Shown here: one piece after another, positions 189-8,190 of the stretch
Layout: the number at the start of each line of letters is the position of its first letter
How positions within the stretch are numbered: position 1 is the stretch's first letter
Source of the DNA: an uncultured Atopobiaceae bacterium
Lineage (GTDB): Bacteria; Actinomycetota; Coriobacteriia; Coriobacteriales; Atopobiaceae
Direction of reading: 5' to 3'
Length of the DNA stretch: 10,293 nucleotides
Assembly: GCA_944321005.1 (NCBI GenBank)
Contig: CALUJT010000057.1
Coordinates: forward strand, 1-10,293
Notes under the pieces: model-generated
Database searches by the model: none
The model's input: only the letters and a program-made list of their open reading frames with translations
Told to the model about the DNA's origin: nothing
Program-made: the position numbers and the translations under genes

Positions 189-345
189 AATTGGGGACGT
201 GTTATTTCTCGCTGAGCGTTTGGGACAGGTCCGTTTACCGGGACCGACTCGACCCGCGCGGACCTGTCCCAAACGCTCAGCGAGAAATAACACGTCCCCA
301 ATTTGCAGGCCCAAACGCTCAGCGAGAAATAACACGTCCCCAATT
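189..345. repeat. Palindromic repeat locus A: 44-bp inverted arms plus a third tandem arm
   Basis: Arms at 189-232 and 260-303 are perfect 44-nt reverse complements around a 27-nt spacer. A third, shortened arm at 310-345 repeats 268-303 exactly (36 nt) in direct orientation, 42 nt downstream. Each arm runs from AATTGGGGACGTG at the outer end to TTTGGGACAGGTCC inside; the third lacks the ACAGGT end. The variable core is TCGCTGAGCG in all three. The locus sits between the hydG stop and the hydF ribosome-binding site, so a transcript through it would fold into a very stable stem about 27 nt upstream of the hydF start. It belongs to the same family as the repeats beside the RAYT transposase gene. 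Confidence 0.95.
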
Positions 346-359
346 GGCAGACCAAATTG

Positions 360-1808
360 CTAGAAGCGGAAGTCGCGGCGGTTGGAGCCGCGGATGTCGG
401 CCACGTGCTCGGTGGCGATGCCCCTCGTACGCTCGTTGGGGATGCGCGCCAGCTCGCGCTCGATGAGCGGCCAGCCCACCTCGGCCGTGGCGGGCGAGGC
501 GTAGTCCACCAGGTACTCCGCGAGCGTCATCAGAGCGTTGGGGTGGCAGCAGTTGAGGATCTGCCCGCTCTTGCAGAGGCTCATGAAGCGGTCCCCCGTG
601 CGACCCTCGCGATAGCACGCGGTGCAGAACGAGGGGATGTGGTCGAGCTGCATGAGCCAGCGCACCACCTCGTCGAGCGAGCGCTGGTCGGAGACGTCGA
701 ACTGCTCCGAGTCGTGCGGGCGCTCCTCCTCGTCGTAGCCGCCCACGCTCGTGCGCGAGCCGCCGGAGATCTGCGAGATGCCCAGCTCGAGGGCGCGCCC
801 GCGCACGGCCTCGTTCTCGCGCGTGGAGATGATCATGCCGGTGTAGGGCACCGCCACGCGGATGCACGCGATGATCTTGGCGAAGGTGTCGTCGTCGATC
901 CCGTTGTCGAACTCGTCCGGGTCGATGTCGTCCGCCCTCTTGAGGCGCGGCACGGAGATGGTGTGCGGCCCCACGCCGTGCACGGCCTCGAGGTGCTCCG
1001 CGTGCATGAGCAGGCCGGCGAACTCGTAGCGGTACTTCTCCAGGCCAAAGAGCACGCCCAGGCCAACGTCGTCGATGCCGCCGTCCATGGCGCGGTCCAT
1101 GGCCTCCGTGTGGTAGGCGTAGTCGTGCTTGGGACCGGTGGGGTGCAGCTCGAGGTAGCTCTTCTTGTCGTAGGTCTCCTGGAAGAGGATGTAGGTGCCA
1201 ATCCCCGCGTCCTTGAGCATGCGGTACTCCTCCACCGTGGTCGCGGCGATGTTGACGTTCACGCGGCGGATAGCACCGTTCCTGTGCTTGATGGAGTAGA
1301 TCGTGTCGATGCACTCGAGGATGTACTCGATGGGGTTCATCCTGGGATCCTCGCCCGCCTCGATGGCAAGGCGCTTGTGCCCCATGTCCTGCAGCGCGAT
1401 GACCTCGCGGCGCACCTCGTCCTGCGTGAGCTTGCGTCGCGCGATGTGCTTGTTCTTGGCGTGGTACGGGCAGTAGGTGCAGCCGTTCACGCAGTAGTTG
1501 GAGAGGTAGAGCGGCGCAAAGAGCACGATGCGGTTGCCGTAGTAGGCGAGCTTGATCTGGCGCGCCAGGTCGAAGATCTTCTCGTTGAGCTCGGGGACGT
1601 CGCAGGCGAGAAGCACGCTCGCCTCGCGGTGCGTGAGGCCCGCGCAGTGGTAGCCGTTGCCCTGACGTACGGGCTTCGCCTTCTCGAGCAGGCTCTCGAT
1701 GAGCGCGACGTCGTGCGCGTGCGCGGCGGCGTAGTCGAGGGTCTCGCGAATCTCCTCGTCGTTGATGAAGTCCTCGGCATAGCGGGACCTCGGGTCGTAC
1801 CTCGCCAT
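360..1808 (-). CDS. hydG: HydG, radical-SAM tyrosine lyase for hydrogenase H-cluster assembly
   Basis: HydG cleaves L-tyrosine by radical SAM chemistry, releasing p-cresol and producing the CO and CN- ligands of the [FeFe]-hydrogenase 2Fe subcluster. The 482-residue product has the family's usual length. The radical SAM cluster motif CX3CX2C is at Cys106, Cys110 and Cys113 (CVNGCTYCPY). The auxiliary-cluster motif CX2CX22C near the C-terminus is at Cys395, Cys398 and Cys421, which distinguishes HydG from ThiH and HydE. Both cluster sites are intact. The start at 1808 is preceded by GGAGAGGAGA on the minus strand. It follows hydE by 90 nt; that gap can form a 7-bp GC stem (1868-1874 with 1883-1889). 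The stop is 15 nt from repeat locus A. Confidence 0.97.
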   Translation of the reverse strand: MARYDPRSRYAEDFINDEEIRETLDYAAAHAHDVALIESLLEKAKPVRQGNGYHCAGLTHREASVLLACDVPELNEKIFDLARQIKLAYYGNRIVLFAPLYLSNYCVNGCTYCPYHAKNKHIARRKLTQDEVRREVIALQDMGHKRLAIEAGEDPRMNPIEYILECIDTIYSIKHRNGAIRRVNVNIAATTVEEYRMLKDAGIGTYILFQETYDKKSYLELHPTGPKHDYAYHTEAMDRAMDGGIDDVGLGVLFGLEKYRYEFAGLLMHAEHLEAVHGVGPHTISVPRLKRADDIDPDEFDNGIDDDTFAKIIACIRVAVPYTGMIISTRENEAVRGRALELGISQISGGSRTSVGGYDEEERPHDSEQFDVSDQRSLDEVVRWLMQLDHIPSFCTACYREGRTGDRFMSLCKSGQILNCCHPNALMTLAEYLVDYASPATAEVGWPLIERELARIPNERTRGIATEHVADIRGSNRRDFRF

Positions 1809-1898
1809 ATGTCTCCTCTCCTTCGCGGTCAGGCTCGCGGGCGCGGGCCTTCCCCCTCAGATGCGCGCCGGGCGCGGCGTGACGCCCGGACTCGGCTG

Positions 1899-2966
1899 TC
1901 AGCGACGCCTGGCGTCGCCCCGGTCGACCACCACGTGGCAGCCGATCTCCTCCATGCGCCGCGACAGCTCGGCAAGCCCCTCTGCCGCCTCGCTGCCGGC
2001 GCACGCCTTATTATCGTACAGCTCGTACTTCTCGCGCGCGTCCGTCGGCGAGAGGTTGGGCATGACCACGTTGGCGCCGGCGAGCATGCCCCGCTCGCGA
2101 CCGCGAGGGTCGAGCGTGGCGAGCGCCGTCGTGGCCGGAAGCAGTAGCGCAGGCTCGATCAGCCGCAGGAGCGAGAGCAGGTAGCACGTGAACCCCACCG
2201 AGCCCGCCGGCTCGTGCGCGAGGGGCGTGGCGTGGTGCGGGACAAAGGGGCCGATGCCGCACATGGCGGGGCGGAGGCCCTCCACCAGCTTGAGGTCGGC
2301 GGCGAGCGTGGCCGGCGTCTGTCCCGGGGAGCCCACCATGAAGCCGCATCCAACCTGGTAGCCTATGGCCGCGAGGTCGCGCAGGCAGGCCAGGCGGTGC
2401 TCCAGCGTGAGCTCCGCCGGGTGGAGGCTCGCGTAGTGCGCGGGGTCCGCCGTCTCGTGCCGCAGCAGGTAGCGGTCTGCGCCCGCGTCAAAGAGGGCCT
2501 GGTAGCTCTTGTGGCTGCGCTCCCCCAGGGAGAGCGTGACCGCGCAGTCCGGGTGTGCCAGCTTTATCGCGCGCACCAGGCCGCACATGAGCTCGTCCGT
2601 GAGCGCTGGGTCCTCCCCGCCCTGGAGCACGAAGGTCCTGAAGCCCAGCTCGTAGCCTTCGTCGCAGCACGCGAGCACGATCTCCGGGGAGAGCCGGTAG
2701 CGCTCCGCCGAGCGGTTGGAGCGGCGAAGGCCACAGTAGAGGCAGTCGTTTCTGCAGTAGCTGCTTATCTCCAGGAGGCCGCGGACGAAGACGTCGTCCC
2801 CGTAGACCGCGCGCCGGGTGACGAGGGCGCGCTCCGCGGCGTAGGCCGCCAGAGAGGGCGAGAAGGACGAGACGAGCTCCTCGTACTTCTCGATGGGAAG
2901 CGCGTGCTCACGGGCGAGAAGGTCGACGAGCTCGCGGCATCGCTCCTCGGCGGCGGAGCTAGGCAT
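1899..2966 (-). CDS. hydE: HydE, radical-SAM maturase for [FeFe]-hydrogenase
   Basis: HydE is the radical SAM enzyme that acts on the HydG-derived iron-cysteine-carbonyl-cyanide product during building of the azadithiolate-bridged cluster. The product is 355 residues, normal for the family. The radical SAM motif is at Cys71, Cys75 and Cys78 (CRNDCLYCGLRRSN), followed by the SAM-binding GGEDP segment, and the C-terminal part contains the conserved ANVVMPN and YDNK segments typical of HydE and BioB-like TIM barrels. The ATG overlaps the end of the upstream TM1266-type gene (8-nt overlap), so the two are probably translationally coupled. BioB is the nearest alternative, but the neighbouring hydG and hydF make HydE the clear call. 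Confidence 0.96.
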   Translation of the reverse strand: MPSSAAEERCRELVDLLAREHALPIEKYEELVSSFSPSLAAYAAERALVTRRAVYGDDVFVRGLLEISSYCRNDCLYCGLRRSNRSAERYRLSPEIVLACCDEGYELGFRTFVLQGGEDPALTDELMCGLVRAIKLAHPDCAVTLSLGERSHKSYQALFDAGADRYLLRHETADPAHYASLHPAELTLEHRLACLRDLAAIGYQVGCGFMVGSPGQTPATLAADLKLVEGLRPAMCGIGPFVPHHATPLAHEPAGSVGFTCYLLSLLRLIEPALLLPATTALATLDPRGRERGMLAGANVVMPNLSPTDAREKYELYDNKACAGSEAAEGLAELSRRMEEIGCHVVVDRGDARRR

Positions 2967-3252
2967 TCGGCCCGCCCTGCCCTGCGTCTTTCTGCTCTGC
3001 GACCACGTTTGAATAGAGCGTCTTCACGCTCACGCCCGGGAGCGACCCCACCTTGCCGGCGAGGGCGGACGTGACGTCCTGCGGCGCGTCCAGGGCGACG
3101 GAGATAACGCTCACCCCGCGCTCACGATACGGCACCCCCATGCGACCGAAGATGTGGTCGCGGTACTCGTGCAGAAGCTCGTTCAGGGCCTCGACGGACT
3201 CCGGGTCCTCGACGATGATCCCCATGATGGCGATGCGCGTGGTGGCGGACAT
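2959..3252 (-). CDS. TM1266-type putative iron-only hydrogenase system regulator (ACT-like fold)
   Basis: This is a 97-residue protein starting MSATTRIAIMGIIVEDPE. It has the small ferredoxin-like/ACT-type pattern of the family annotated as putative iron-only hydrogenase system regulator (TM1266-like), including EALNELLHEYRDHIFGRMGVPY and a second half with VISVALDAP and LPGVSVKTLYS. The role of the family is inferred from linkage with hydEFG; its ligand is not established. The longer in-frame start at 3309 was rejected because the ATG at 3252 has AGGAGAGGGGAG just upstream and matches the usual N-terminus. The stop overlaps the hydE start, so this is the first gene of the hyd maturation operon. 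Confidence 0.85.
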   Translation of the reverse strand: MSATTRIAIMGIIVEDPESVEALNELLHEYRDHIFGRMGVPYRERGVSVISVALDAPQDVTSALAGKVGSLPGVSVKTLYSNVVAEQKDAGQGGPNA

Positions 3253-3283
3253 GGCGCTCCCCTCTCCTGTTGGCCGTGTGCCC

Positions 3284-3289
3284 ATCATA
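3284..3289 (-). promoter_or_regulatory. Candidate -10 box of the hyd maturation operon
   Basis: TATGAT on the minus strand matches TATAAT in five of six positions and lies 32 nt upstream of the first start codon, giving a leader of about 25 nt. No good -35 lies at 16-18 bp; the nearest candidate, TTGAGG, is 21 bp upstream. An activator-dependent promoter would explain this. Inference only. Confidence 0.35.
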
Positions 3290-3320
3290 GTTCTTCTCGG
3301 CAGCGTCACGCCTCAATCGC

Positions 3321-3378
3321 CATGTTTCTGCGGACAAAATAGGCTTCGACAAAGGCCGATCCTGTCCGGAAATACATG
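3321..3378. repeat. Imperfect 58-nt palindrome upstream of the hyd operon promoter
   Basis: The segment begins catgt and ends acatg. It pairs with itself at 18 of the outer 24 positions, with a GGACA/TGTCC core and a GGC/GCC inner block around a short AT-richer centre. It lies about 30 bp upstream of the candidate -10 box. It may be a regulator binding region, or a degenerate member of another small repeat family. It lacks the AATTGGGGAC motif of the main repeat family. Sequence alone does not separate these options. Confidence 0.55.
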
Positions 3379-3453
3379 GTGGTCGCACGACGAGAAGAAC
3401 CCGGAGGCAGCTCCTCCCACCCCCGCCCCCGGCAGAAGGAGCGACATGTGAGA

Positions 3454-3520
3454 GGCGGCCCCGGACCTGCTAAGAGGAAGTTCCGCGCAGCGCACTTCCT
3501 CGTGCAGGTCCGGGGCCGCC
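3454..3520 (-). terminator. Strong hairpin downstream of gdhA, probable terminator
   Basis: Two perfect 17-nt complementary arms (3454-3470 and 3504-3520, GGCGGCCCCGGACCTGC and its complement) enclose an inner 8-bp stem (3474-3481 with 3494-3501). The hairpin begins 24 nt after the gdhA stop on the minus strand. There is no T-run after it in either direction, so it is either a T-less terminator of the kind seen in GC-rich actinobacteria or a stabilising 3' end. Its position between gdhA and the hyd promoter favours a role in separating the two units. Confidence 0.6.
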
Positions 3521-3544
3521 CCCACCTTGAATCGGGTCAGGCGA

Positions 3545-5066
<1,522 letters not shown>

Positions 5067-5168
5067 CTGTTAATTGGGGACGGGTTATTTCCGTCAGACC
5101 GTTTGGGACAGGTTTTCAGCAACCTGTCCCAAACGGTCTGACGGAAATAACCCGTCCCCAATTAACAG
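5067..5168. repeat. Palindromic repeat locus B: perfect 48-bp inverted arms, 6-nt loop
   Basis: Arms 5067-5114 and 5121-5168 are exact reverse complements with loop TTCAGC, forming a 102-nt near-perfect cruciform or hairpin. Each arm runs from CTGTTAATTGGGGACGGG at its outer end to TTTGGGACAGGTT inside. The variable core is CGTCAGACCG, different from locus A but identical in its own two arms. It lies between the tRNA-Gly terminator and the gdhA upstream region. Its right arm reaches to within 2 nt of the terminator stem and overlaps the T-rich tail of that terminator. Confidence 0.96.
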
Positions 5169-5170
5169 AA

Positions 5171-5193
5171 AGCCCGGGCAAGTGGCCCGGGCT
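5171..5193 (-). terminator. Terminator of the tRNA-Pro/tRNA-Gly unit
   Basis: AGCCCGGGC (5171-5179) pairs perfectly with 5185-5193 across a 5-nt loop. On the minus strand the stem is followed by TTTCTGTT. It lies 10 nt past the 3' CCA of tRNA-Gly. The T-tail is short and merges with the outer edge of repeat locus B. Confidence 0.75.
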
Positions 5194-5203
5194 CATCAAA
5201 GTC

Positions 5204-5277
<74 letters not shown>

Positions 5278-5282
5278 GTGCA

Positions 5283-5359
5283 TGGTCGGGGCGACTGGAT
5301 TCGAACCAGCGACCCTCTGCTCCCAAAGCAGATGCGCTACCAAGCTGCGCCACGCCCCG
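5283..5359 (-). tRNA. tRNA-Pro (anticodon TGG)
   Basis: The minus strand gives a 77-nt cloverleaf with acceptor CGGGGCG/CGCCCCG, D arm with the usual AGCTTGGTAGCGC, anticodon loop TTTGGGA (anticodon TGG), T loop TTCGAAT and encoded CCA. It reads CCA/CCG proline codons. It is the first gene of a two-tRNA unit. Confidence 0.97.
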
Positions 5360-5372
5360 GTCGCAAGTGACA

Positions 5373-5401
5373 AGTATAGGCGAGCGTCCCCCGCCCGGCA
5401 A
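5373..5401 (-). promoter_or_regulatory. Promoter of the tRNA-Pro/Gly unit
   Basis: The minus strand has TTGCCG (5396-5401) and TATACT (5373-5378) separated by 17 bp; the -10 is a five-of-six match. The -10 lies 13 nt upstream of the mature tRNA-Pro 5' end, as is usual for tRNA units. Confidence 0.7.
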
Positions 5402-5407
5402 TGTGCA

Positions 5408-5427
5408 AATTGGGGTCGGGTCCCTTT
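5408..5427. repeat. Possible degenerate fragment of the AATTGGGG repeat family
   Basis: AATTGGGGTCGGGT followed by CCCTTTTT resembles the outer end of locus B (AATTGGGGACGGGT) with one change in the first 14 nt, then diverges. No inner TTTGGGACAGGT end and no partner arm are present. It may be a decayed half-element, a different short repeat, or chance. Confidence 0.35.
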
Positions 5428-5540
5428 TTACACATCCGACCGCCGTGTCTCCTTGCCCGCCCGCCTAAATCAACGGCACATGGTGACTTGGCGCGACATA
5501 TGCGGGTAACAAGTAGACACCCCCGGGAAGGAAGGCCTTC

Positions 5541-5996
5541 ATGGACGAGCTGCTTATCACCAACTCCATCGCAACGCTGTGGTTTCCCGCGGTCGTCATC
5601 CTCTCGCTCGCCACCATCGCGGGCAGGTGGGTCATTCTGGGAAAGATGGGCAGAAGGCGTTGGGCCGCGATCGTCCCGGTCTTCTCGACCTGGGAGGTGA
5701 GCGAGGGGGCCTCCGGTAGCCGCGTGCTGAGCACGGTTGCCGCCACGGCGAGCGCGGCGTTTCTGATCTCCGTCCTTCTCGGCCTCGGGCGCCACTACGA
5801 GACGCAGTGGGTCGCGACGCTCATCCTCGCACTCTGGATCGTGACGCAGCTCGTGGTGAGCGAGCGGCTCGCGAGGGCCTTTGGGGCGGGTCCGGGCTTT
5901 GCGGCGGGGCTCGTTCTTGTCCCCATCGTCACATACCCGCTCCTCGTGATGGACGGAAAGGTATATCTCGGCCCGGTTGACGGGTCCGGCGCCTAA
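5541..5996 (+). CDS. Small multi-spanning membrane protein, DUF5684-like
   Basis: The 151-residue protein has about four hydrophobic segments, roughly residues 10-27, 61-82, 89-107 and 117-137. Between the first two is a basic loop, GKMGRRRWAAIVPVFSTW (34-51), that resembles the G-x-x-x-W-x-A-x-x-P-x-x hallmark of the DUF5684-type small membrane proteins often found beside signal peptidases. No catalytic residues were recognised and no function is assigned. The start is chosen because GGAAGGAAGG lies just upstream. The stop is 61 nt before the lipid kinase start, so the two may share a transcript, although a TACAAT box lies between them. Confidence 0.7.
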   Translation: MDELLITNSIATLWFPAVVILSLATIAGRWVILGKMGRRRWAAIVPVFSTWEVSEGASGSRVLSTVAATASAAFLISVLLGLGRHYETQWVATLILALWIVTQLVVSERLARAFGAGPGFAAGLVLVPIVTYPLLVMDGKVYLGPVDGSGA

Positions 5997-6019
5997 GACG
6001 CCCCGGGTGTCACCTGGCG

Positions 6020-6025
6020 TACAAT
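6020..6025 (+). promoter_or_regulatory. Candidate -10 box upstream of the lipid kinase gene
   Basis: TACAAT matches TATAAT in five of six positions and lies 32 nt upstream of the ATG at 6058. No recognisable -35 is present at normal spacing, so read-through from the upstream membrane-protein gene is an alternative. Confidence 0.3.
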
Positions 6026-6057
6026 CGGGGCGATAAGAACCTCGAGAAGGGCGTCTC

Positions 6058-6981
6058 ATGGCAAACTCCCCGCTCGGTCGCACGCTGCTCATAGCCAACC
6101 CCGCCGCCCACAGCGGCCGCGGCGCTGAGGGCGCGGACTTCGCACGCCACTTCCTGGGGAGCTACTCCACCGCGACGCGCGGGTACGAGGTCCGCCTCAC
6201 CAGCGGGCCCGGCGACGCTGTGGGAATCGCCGCGGGCGCCGTTGGCTTTGACACGGTCCTCGCGCTCGGCGGCGACGGGGTCATCCACGAGGTCGTGAAC
6301 GGCCTCATGCGGCTTCCGGCCTCCGCGCGCCCGCAGCTCGGCATCATTCCCCTTGGCTCCGGCAACGACTACGCCCGCACGCTCGGCATGGTCAAGAACG
6401 ACGTCGAAGGGGCGTTTGCGCAGCTCGTCCGCGGCACGGTACGCGAGCTCGAGGTCGGACGCGTCAACGGGGCCCACTTCATGCAGACCCTCTCGTTTGG
6501 CCTGGACGCTGCAATCGCGCTGGACACGACCGACCGTCGCGCAGCCAACACCTCGCAGGAGGGCGAGGCGCTCTTCATCACCTCCGGCCTCAAGATCCTC
6601 TCGCGCGCGAGGGACGGCTTTCCCTGCACGGCGCGCTTCGACGACGAGGGGCCCGTCGACCTCAGGACGCTCATCTTTGCCGTGCAGGTGGGGCCCACGT
6701 ACGGCGGCGGCTTCAGGGTCTGCCCGGACGCGGACCCCGGCGACGGCCTTCTCGACGTCTGCTACAACGTCAAGAAGCCAGCGGTCCCCCACCTGTTGGC
6801 CCTCTTTGGGCTCGCGCGCTCCGGTCGTCACGCGAGGTCGCGCGTCGTTCGCCTGCGCCGCATCCGCCACGCCGAGCTCGACTTTGCCGAGGAGCCGCCC
6901 TGCCAGGTCGACGGCGAGCGCCTTGCCGGCACCCACTTCGAGATCGACGTCATCCCCCGCGCCCTCCGCGTCATCTGTTAA
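6058..6981 (+). CDS. Diacylglycerol kinase family (DagK/YegS/LCB5-type) lipid kinase
   Basis: Members phosphorylate diacylglycerol or related lipids with ATP; in Gram-positive bacteria DgkB recycles diacylglycerol into phosphatidic acid. The 307-residue product has the whole family architecture: N-terminal NPAAHSGRG (about 14-22), the nucleotide-binding GGDGVIHEVVNG (71-82), GSGNDYAR (100-107), and a C-terminal domain with PDADPGDGLLDV and QVDGE (283-287). Catalytic-domain motifs are intact. The exact lipid substrate is not readable; a YegS-like kinase is also possible. The TAA stop at 6979-6981 lies inside the border of repeat arm C, so the last codon or two may have been altered by insertion. 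Confidence 0.9.
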   Translation: MANSPLGRTLLIANPAAHSGRGAEGADFARHFLGSYSTATRGYEVRLTSGPGDAVGIAAGAVGFDTVLALGGDGVIHEVVNGLMRLPASARPQLGIIPLGSGNDYARTLGMVKNDVEGAFAQLVRGTVRELEVGRVNGAHFMQTLSFGLDAAIALDTTDRRAANTSQEGEALFITSGLKILSRARDGFPCTARFDDEGPVDLRTLIFAVQVGPTYGGGFRVCPDADPGDGLLDVCYNVKKPAVPHLLALFGLARSGRHARSRVVRLRRIRHAELDFAEEPPCQVDGERLAGTHFEIDVIPRALRVIC

Positions 6982-7023
6982 TTGGGGACGTGTTTTTTCG
7001 TGCAGATGATTTGGGACAGGTTT
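6980..7023 (+). repeat. Repeat arm C, left border of the RAYT cassette
   Basis: This 44-nt single arm starts AATTGGGGACGTG and ends TTTGGGACAGGTTT, with core GTGCAGATGA. It has no local partner, but arm D2 at 8141-8184 is its inverted copy with three differences in 44 nt, all in the core. With the preceding CTGTT it matches the outer border of locus B exactly for 16 nt. Confidence 0.92.
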
Positions 7024-7091
7024 GTCGTCCGTTGTACCAAGCTTGCCGGGCGCAACCGCTCAAGCGGCACCCGACTCCGGACTCGTTGAGC

Positions 7092-7114
7092 AAAAAAGAC
7101 AGCACTCTCCTGTT
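7092..7114 (-). terminator. Possible weak terminator of the RAYT gene
   Basis: On the minus strand, 10 nt after the RAYT stop, a short 4-5 bp stem (AACAG with CTGTC) is followed by TTTTTT. The stem is weak, so the T-run may be incidental. Confidence 0.3.
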
Positions 7115-7123
7115 GACGAGCGC

Positions 7124-7891
7124 TCACTCCCCGCTTGCGAGAAGAATCCCCTTTTGAATGGAGTAGCGACCGATGCTCGTCACGCGCTCGATCTGCCTGA
7201 GCGAGAGGCCCGCATCCCTGAGGGCAAGAAGCGCTTGGTCCCTATCCGCGCCGGACAGTTCTCGCAGCGCCCGCGGGTCAAGTGGATACAGCACGGCGCG
7301 GGCAATCTCGAAGACGTCATCTTCGGGAACCCTCTTGCCCGCGCGAAAGCAGTACGCATTTGGCCGACTCTGAAAGCTCATGGACAAGAAGCCGTCAGCT
7401 CCGCCCAACAGGTCAAGGATCGGATCGACGTTGGCCAGTCCCCACTCGCCTCCCGTTCCCGCATACTCATCGAAGCTGCTCCACGGGTAGTCGGCAGCCG
7501 AGCAAAGCCCGGCCTTCTCGGGGTTATCATGAATGTATCTGACGGCCGCGACCAGTTGTGCGTCGGACTCGATGGGAACGCTCTTAAACCGACCGTCGAA
7601 CACGGAGCCCACATGCCCCGTCCTGCTGTTGAAGTGCCCGGCGTACTTCGTCGCAAGGGCATGCATCGCAGAACTCAGACAACCGACCTCGTCACAGAAG
7701 AGGAGGTGGACATGGTTCGTCATAAGACACCAGGCAAGAAGCGAGAGTCCCGGGGTCTCAAGCGTTCTGGAAAGAGCTTCGAGAAACGCTCGCCTGTCAA
7801 CGTCATCCTCGAAGATTACCTGCCTACCGTTGCCTCTCAGCATAACGTGATAGTATCCAGACTCTGCGACCTTTCTTGACGTCCTCGGCAT
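7124..7891 (-). CDS. REP-associated tyrosine transposase (RAYT, Y1/HUH family)
   Basis: RAYTs are single-copy relatives of IS200/IS605 TnpA that nick single-stranded palindromic repeats using a HUH metal site and one tyrosine. The 255-residue product has the Y1_Tnp domain in about residues 10-130: YYHVMLRGN at the start, the HUH motif NHVHLL with His60 and His62, GHVGSVFDGRFKS (92-104), and RYIHDNPEKAGL (118-129), where Tyr119 is the likely nucleophile. The C-terminal third ends in an HTH-like segment (AGLSLRQIERVTSIGRYSIQKG). The gene is intact. A purine-rich GGGAGAGGAGAGGG precedes the ATG. It is enclosed by repeat arms C, D1 and D2, and has no TnpB partner. The assignment to RAYT rather than an IS200-type TnpA rests on length, motif spacing and flanking repeats. 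Confidence 0.9.
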   Translation of the reverse strand: MPRTSRKVAESGYYHVMLRGNGRQVIFEDDVDRRAFLEALSRTLETPGLSLLAWCLMTNHVHLLFCDEVGCLSSAMHALATKYAGHFNSRTGHVGSVFDGRFKSVPIESDAQLVAAVRYIHDNPEKAGLCSAADYPWSSFDEYAGTGGEWGLANVDPILDLLGGADGFLSMSFQSRPNAYCFRAGKRVPEDDVFEIARAVLYPLDPRALRELSGADRDQALLALRDAGLSLRQIERVTSIGRYSIQKGILLASGE

Positions 7892-7917
7892 GCCCTCTCC
7901 TCTCCCTCAGTGGAAAG

Positions 7918-7945
7918 AAGATACCATCAGCGAAGGACTTTTCAA
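7918..7945 (-). promoter_or_regulatory. Promoter of the RAYT gene
   Basis: The minus strand carries TTGAAA (7940-7945) and TATCTT (7918-7923) with a 16-bp spacer, ending 26 nt before the ATG. The -35 is a five-of-six match. The region is AT-rich compared with its surroundings. Confidence 0.6.
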
Positions 7946-8060
7946 CAAGCATCAAGGTTTTCGACAAATTGACAAATCAGGGTTCTTGGCGATTAGACCA
8001 ATAGGGCGCAGCAGCACTGCCGAAGACGTCCCGCCGAACGGACGATCGTCGGCGTTTCAG

Positions 8061-8101
8061 ACCCGTCCCAAAACGTCTGCACGAAATAACACGTCCCCAA
8101 T
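8061..8101 (-). repeat. Repeat arm D1, inner right arm of the RAYT cassette
   Basis: Read on the minus strand it runs ATTGGGGACGTGTTATTTC, core GTGCAGACGT, then TTTGGGACGGGT. It is in the same orientation as arm D2 and inverted to arm C. Its core differs from arm C at two positions. The ACAGGT end carries one change (ACGGGT). Confidence 0.9.
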
Positions 8102-8111
8102 GTGCACAAAA

Positions 8112-8139
8112 GGACGGCGCCGCAGATGCGACGCCGTCC
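8112..8139 (-). terminator. Intrinsic terminator of the ptsI operon
   Basis: 12-nt arms (8112-8123 and 8128-8139) pair at 11 of 12 positions around the loop AGAT on the plus strand, and on the minus strand the stem is followed by TTTT. This is a canonical terminator lying 51 nt past the ptsI stop. Repeat arm D2 lies between the stop codon and the terminator. Confidence 0.85.
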
Positions 8140-8140
8140 A

Positions 8141-8184
8141 AAACCTGTCCCAAATAGTCTGAACGAAAAAACACGTCCCCAATT
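8141..8184 (-). repeat. Repeat arm D2, outer right border of the RAYT cassette
   Basis: On the minus strand it reads AATTGGGGACGTGTTTTTTC, core GTTCAGACTA, then TTTGGGACAGGTTT. It is the inverted partner of arm C. Including the preceding CTGCT, its border begins 2 nt after the ptsI stop codon. Confidence 0.92.
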
Positions 8185-8190
8185 AGCAGG

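Follow-up and report, generated by a model that had tools for sequence, protein, structure and literature searches.

Why do the two arms of a bacterial DNA hairpin carry the same short variable sequence when that sequence differs from one hairpin to the next? The question is raised by contig 57 (CALUJT010000057.1) of the draft genome of an uncultured Atopobiaceae bacterium (GCA_944321005.1, here G000; 294 contigs, 85% complete), a stretch of 10,293 nucleotides referred to below as the window. The host is a gut bacterium of an Olsenella-like genus, with dozens of dispersed DNA hairpins linked to a tame transposase. In the window, palindromes A and B and arms C, D1 and D2 share one arm design, and the last three lie around a gene for an HUH/Y1 transposase of the RAYT kind (REP-associated tyrosine transposase, REP standing for repetitive extragenic palindrome). 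The arms are probably the repeats of a REPtron/TIRtron, i.e. non-autonomous intergenic hairpin elements served by this RAYT, whose arms would be kept matched by template switching and whose sites would be retyped when the RAYT allele is switched (orthoswitch). The pattern is real and non-random, and its comparative setting is uncommonly clean; the broader subject is an exchange both of RAYT alleles and of the repeat type found at shared sites. The features concerned are the following.

189..232, + strand: palindrome A, first arm, core TCGCTGAGCG at 209-218
260..303, - strand: palindrome A, second arm, core identical to that of the first arm
310..345, - strand: third arm adjoining palindrome A, truncated (inner block without ACAGGT), core as in A
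5067..5114, + strand: palindrome B, first arm, core CGTCAGACCG at 5092-5101
5121..5168, - strand: palindrome B, second arm, core identical to that of the first arm
6975..7023, + strand: arm C, 3' side of the RAYT gene, core GTGCAGATGA
7124..7891, - strand: RAYT gene, HUH/Y1 transposase of 255 aa with NHVH and YIHDNP
8058..8101, - strand: arm D1, 5' side of the RAYT gene, core GTGCAGACGT
8141..8189, - strand: arm D2, 5' side of the RAYT gene at the ptsI end, core GTTCAGACTA

All eight arms read by the initial annotation are present with their two blocks, the one at 310-345 lacking ACAGGT, and both arms of A and of B do carry the same core, as sequence comparison bore out. Each arm consists of two direct GGGAC-type boxes (TTGGGGACGKGTTWTTTC, GGGACAGG) set apart by a 13-nt spacer with a CAGA-like centre, and two inverted arms form an element. 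The annotation had described exactly 10 variable nucleotides between the blocks. The fixed length held genome-wide: with a pattern allowing 4-20 nt, all 22 matches in G000 have 10 nt and the reversed control has none, while the outer block matches 41 times in that genome. With 4-24 nt allowed, matches occurred in 15 of the 31 genomes of the genus (reversed control 0 in all 31), and the scan of the family found them in 15 of 140 genomes, within one of 35 genera (reversed control 0). Among the matches listed, one has another length, 46 nt (G022 contig 144, 1677-1722); it continues into a further GGGGGACGGG stretch. The description of the variable part had to be amended. The TTT following the core varies too (e.g. 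AAAA), so that 13 nt, between ...TTTC and GGGAC, make up the part whose length is constant and whose sequence varies, and most variation among 220 typed arms (nine genomes, window included) sits there; the remaining block positions were fixed by the search pattern itself. Within the core, positions 4-7 are CAGA-like (C in 220 arms, A in 209, G in 220, A in 189), and two outer-block positions vary as well, with the arms agreeing there in 79 and 77 of 82 palindromes. Left out of the 220-arm set were G004, G010, G016, G017, G025, G029, the unpaired arms of G022, some unpaired arms of G000, a junction-like match in G015 contig 7 and the 46-nt match in G022.

The matching of paired arms extends far beyond the window. 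An identical 10-nt core occurs in both arms of 60 of the 82 palindromes, whereas 10,000 within-genome permutations gave 10.1 on average and never more than 22, and the addition of four palindromes (three from G010, one from G017) brings the count to 62 of 86, the shuffled mean referring to the set of 82. The annotated rule that the arms of a palindrome share their core thus describes most palindromes, and 24 of the 86 depart from it. Cores are diverse, with 22 different ones among the 27 palindromes of G015. One locus of G015 (L241, contig 34, 103700-105400) contains two nested palindromes, the arms of each pair sharing a core particular to that pair; at the orthologous position, L189 and L206 have simple palindromes or partial extra arms.

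How paired arms stay alike was approached by grouping long elements of different species by their flanking DNA and then comparing arms. In 22 element pairs selected by us from the orthologous groups, the two arms had undergone the same change at 58 positions and different changes at one, and at 27 positions a single arm had changed; seven of the pairs join different core types, where replacement of the whole element is possible. Both-arm coincidence (59) exceeded a permuted mean of 17.7 and a maximum of 39 in 20,000. Adjacent bases change jointly in both arms, e.g. from GAAAA to TTTTT in L186/L215. Among 46 loop comparisons between species, 17 were direct and eight inverted. Loops were kept at 13/13 in L199/L213 and in L192/L200, where three and two arm positions, respectively, had changed in both arms, and the loop of L003/L197 is inverted at 20/20; further inversions are those of L189/L206 (12/13) and L186/L246 (9/10). 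We take inversion as clear at three loci (L003/L197, L189/L206, and L246 vs L186 and L215), the other inverted calls resting on partly self-complementary or dissimilar loops (L183/L256, L224/L238, and L252 vs L192 and L200). Copying of whole elements was considered and rejected: in 15 pairs of unrelated, equally long loops from the same genome, agreement is 11/13 at best and 8/13 in the fifth best, so that loops are as a rule not copied along or else diverge fast. Because both arms often change alike at orthologous sites and some loops are exactly kept or inverted, arm matching is best explained by template switching inside the hairpin, in which DNA polymerase would switch template and a change in one arm would be copied to the other. 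The suggestion in the initial annotation that arms are copied together or gene-converted is supported by these counts and loops. Template switching between inverted-repeat arms, with arms made alike and spacers inverted, has been described (PMC8604942; PMC8794818). Those cases resemble ours in their homogenised arms, simultaneous change of several bases and inverted spacers; they concern yeast coding DNA and RNA genes, and the portions available do not describe RAYT repeats.

Two other explanations of the matched cores had been put forward together with copying. According to one, the pairing of the arms is maintained by nothing but selection, acting through compensatory point mutations, the element being an RNA terminator, an mRNA stabiliser or a single-stranded RAYT substrate, with no copying between arms. 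The folds of the long palindromes are indeed much more stable than those of shuffled sequence (z -19.8 and -18.0, the former for palindrome B, whose arms fold together into one 48-bp hairpin), the elements are situated at the ends of genes, and REPINs are reported to undergo compensatory change in their middle part (PMC3116915). However, compensation predicts neither the joint change of neighbouring bases in both arms (GAAAA to TTTTT in L186/L215) nor the inversion of loops as a unit, and we regard selection as an unlikely sole cause. Selection for pairing may add to template switching. According to the other, the core is a tag that pairs the element with an enzyme or a target, like the guides of IS200/IS605. 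One core type does tend to prevail per genome (GTGCAGAC in G012, G018 and G021; TCTCAGAG in G009, G013 and G015), and the arms at the RAYT of the window have GTGCAGAY or GTTCAGAC, but many cores coexist, as the G015 palindromes illustrate, the genomes with GTGCAGAC arms now have a RAYT of another repeat type (the short type introduced below), and RAYT alleles are separated by whole repeat type, long or short, not by exact core. In addition, the known guide tetranucleotide lies 5' of the hairpin (PMC8266576), whereas the core here lies inside the arm, in the stem. We consider the tag highly improbable and have dropped it.

The likeness to IS200/IS605 that accompanied the tag idea is right in kind, in that a Y1 HUH RAYT, unnamed in the initial annotation, is present in the window; the guide-tag role is the part that fell. 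PF01797 matches the protein (E 1.3e-10) and all 60 relatives, and the model for REP-associated tyrosine transposases, NF047646, gives 61.7 bits, under its cut-off of 80. The motifs are NHVH at 59-62 and YIHDNP at 119-124, with H60, H62, N123 and P124 invariant and Y119 nearly so across 60 relatives; the tyrosine motif is YIHDNP and does not follow the Y---Q of IS200/IS605 TnpA. The structure model (pLDDT 92.7) has as its best fold match 4er8, a RAYT-REP hairpin complex, which came from the fold search; a PDB sequence search with the RAYT profile gave no match at E 0.001. The C-terminus is modelled as helices 214-226, 231-238 and 242-254, for which a helix-turn-helix domain, a mark of the TIRYT/subclass 2.1 group discussed below, is weakly supported: such families appear in some of the 60 relatives (best E 7e-4) and in the window protein none at E 1. 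Characteristic of a RAYT, the gene is flanked by its own dispersed repeat family, in three arms of 41-54 nt on its two sides, a layout that recurs in seven further genomes. Contacts with the RAYT would hold boxes and spacing constant and allow the spacer more freedom, and the RAYT would spread its own repeat type on single-stranded DNA. RAYTs already characterised cleave at CT (PMC8266576).

Distinct RAYT alleles occur beside ptsI, each accompanied by a repeat type of its own. We examined 70 RAYT loci of the genus; RAYT matches number one to six per genome in 28 of the 31 genomes. Arms of the window's type (long) lie on both sides of eight RAYTs, and palindromes of a different, short type (GGGGACAGTCCCC; GGGGACNGTCCCC) on both sides of nine, and all 17 are beside ptsI. 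Two more ptsI-locus RAYTs are flanked otherwise, that of G028 by a GGGGTCGGGTCCC type (30-nt inverted repeat, 97%) and that of G027 by long-like divergent arms, as judged by eye. Among the 51 RAYTs located elsewhere, no gene is flanked on both sides by either type, and one has a one-sided short palindrome. In the tree of the 70 RAYTs, the short-flanked genes form a clade (100/99), as do the long-flanked (91/94), and the ptsI-locus genes group together (96/84). The tree of gdhA (29 genomes; a single gene, near the RAYT locus) has the allele labels scattered, with five changes each, which 243 and 221 of 500 shuffles reach. In it, G000 with the long allele and G001 with the short allele are sisters (100/100), and their ptsI-locus RAYTs are only 47% identical while another RAYT paralog (L273, L279) is nearly identical. 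The divergent alleles of sister genomes, the near-identical paralog and the scattered labels indicate that RAYT alleles at the ptsI locus have been exchanged among species.

The genome-wide repeat content largely follows the resident RAYT allele. At least 20 short palindromes are found in all nine short-allele genomes and in one of the 22 others (Fisher 5e-7), namely in one of eight long-allele genomes (G000, with 25) and none of the remaining 14. At least 12 long arms are found in seven of eight long-allele genomes, in four of nine short-allele genomes and in none of the remaining 14.

The same contrast recurs site by site between the sisters. G001 is 96-98% identical to the window in three aligned parts and 92% in a fourth, and short palindromes are present in it twice at site A, once at site B, and once to either side of its ptsI-locus RAYT. 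Earlier G001 sites had been picked for holding short palindromes; sites free of this bias are those of the window and the flanks of 13 further long loci of G000, in this one sister pair. Eleven of the 13 flanks, representing 10 loci, were found in G001, with a short element in the same gap in five and neither type in five, so that the 13 comparable sites (10 loci plus A, B and the RAYT locus) are short in eight, of neither type in five and long in none; an exact long arm has no match anywhere in G001. Nine of 15 G000 short palindromes examined, at seven places, are shared with G001 (the G001 loci having been chosen for holding short palindromes), so that short repeats are the older in this pair. 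In other species the gdhA/tRNA-Gly site of palindrome B is empty or is occupied by an element, which may be long, short or of a further inner type; in L121 (G021) and L134 (G018) the inner sequence in that gap is GTGACAATTAGGACAGGTTAAATTGTCAC. Import of whole segments as the source of the type difference at A and B was rejected, since the similarity of the flanks continues to the border of the element (96-98% on the A side and to the left of B, 92% to its right). Replacement of the ptsI-locus allele by recombination (an orthoswitch) would let a new type occupy many old addresses. It is a serious possibility, a little short of an even chance in our judgement, that the allele is exchanged as a cassette at this one fixed locus and that the arriving allele rewrites dispersed repeats in place, within a few per cent of divergence, with the shared outer ends as entry points.

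Retyping could also be an illusion, if long and short elements had been inserted independently in the same preferred spots, at gene ends and just past terminators. The sites do lie at gene ends, several species have nothing at the gdhA site, five of the 13 G001 sites have neither type, and the sequence following the CTG end is often different for the two types at a given site. However, the two species agree in the outer CTG-NNN and the arm start at B, C and L042/L043, the short repeats are older in the G000/G001 pair (by the nine of 15 shared, with the choice of loci just noted), and eight co-occupied sites of 13 would arise by chance with P 1e-13 at 1% occupancy or 4e-8 at 5%, the 5% being guessed. 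We find independent insertion rather less likely than not. Insertion of a long element into the middle of a short one predicts the same CTG-NNN ends in both species, which holds at B, C and L042/L043 and fails at A, D2, L001, L002, L022 and L044.

Several observations weigh against the account of template switching and RAYT-driven retyping favoured here. Cores are unlike in 24 of the 86 palindromes, and in G022 they match in two of eight only. When the 15 orthologous pairs of the same core type are taken alone, one-arm changes (26) outnumber both-arm changes (17), 22 of the 26 coming from five pairs. No clear orientation could be assigned in 21 of the 46 loop comparisons, and, since unrelated loops reach 11/13, the shorter inversions (12/13 and 9/10) weigh less than the one at 20/20. 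The RAYT of G011 is of the long type, yet that genome is without an exact match to the long pattern, the arms flanking its RAYT deviating from it. Four short-allele genomes contain 12 or more long arms, which may be remnants of an earlier long allele. Finally, a search for target-site duplication found no empty site with clean, defined ends.

In kind, these elements are known, as REPIN/TIRtron repeats with an orthoswitch; new are the clade, the design of the arm and the fact that repeat types are exchanged at shared sites. RAYTs flanked by long inverted repeats have been named TIRYTs, some with dispersed dimeric repeats (PMC3733652), and 20 of 26 TIRYT examples fall in TnpAY1 subclass 2.1, Bertels group 1 (PMC6006769). 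The window system resembles them in its RAYT-like Y1 HUH gene of about 250 aa, its long inverted repeats without a GTAG foot and its dispersed single and dimeric copies, as well as in its NHVH and Y---NP motifs (PMC3733652; PMC6006769). The GGGGWSAS of some, not all, terminal inverted repeats agrees with the short type (GGGGACAG) and with the arms beside the G013 RAYT, whereas the window arms fit in part only, reading GGGGACGT, TGGGACAG or GGGGACGG, and differ from those of a TIRtron in having two boxes and a fixed 13-nt spacer. Genus names of Coriobacteriia do not occur in the available portions of PMC6006769 and PMC3733652, and no open-licence paper was found that joins 'repetitive extragenic palindrom' with 'Olsenella'. 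With REPINs the elements share inverted pairs, conserved ends, a covarying middle and the link to a RAYT; unlike in REPINs, what covaries is a spacer of fixed length within each arm, and a GTAG-type foot is absent (PMC3116915). In Pseudomonas and Stenotrophomonas, syntenic RAYTs with different REP classes have been treated as orthogroups and a change between them as an orthoswitch (PMC3686654). The genus likewise has different flanking repeat classes at one syntenic place in related genomes (eight long-flanked, nine short-flanked and two otherwise flanked RAYTs beside ptsI), together with matching and left-over dispersed repeats. That paper infers mutated flanking repeats and a spread in which old copies are left to decay, whereas here alleles of less than 50% identity are exchanged between sister genomes and the new type stands in old places. 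Exchange of repeat type at the same sites was not found among the available portions of open-licence papers and is possibly in print elsewhere.

The sister genomes, which differ in one-locus allele and in repeat type at many shared sites, offer a natural experiment on RAYT action. The two-box arm with its fixed spacer predicts recognition by distance and little by spacer sequence. The inversion of loops is a mark of template switching in hairpins of natural bacterial DNA, a caution that covariation alone is no proof of structural selection where one arm can copy the other.

The remaining observations concern the window and its surroundings. Complementarity between arms is 94% over 54 nt in A and 100% over 48 nt in B, and the outer ends of the arms read CTGNNA-TTGGGG or near variants, with none of the GTAG/GTGG tetranucleotide that canonical REPs have at the 5' foot of the hairpin. 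Palindrome B lies upstream of gdhA, past a terminator-like hairpin of tRNA genes, and arm C overlaps the stop codon of a diacylglycerol-kinase-like gene. At gathering score, Rfam finds only two tRNAs in the whole window and the palindromes match no RNA family, on which ground the hairpins were rejected as an Rfam family. Draft contigs 51, 84/89, 111, 151 and 222 of G000 terminate in or right beside palindromes; the repeats therefore probably break the assembly, and copies are undercounted. A single copy of a third repeat type, TTGGGGTCGGGTCCCTTTTTAC, which flanks the ptsI-locus RAYT of G028, lies at 5405-5440; exact copies number six in G028, four in G000 and one each in G001, G027 and G030, too few to make more than a weak case for a full third system, and the idea was set aside. 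A large hairpin 3' of gdhA (GGCGGCCCCGGACCTGC...GCAGGTCCGGGGCCGCC) occupies 3453-3523 of the window, and similar ones follow gdhA in several genomes of the genus.

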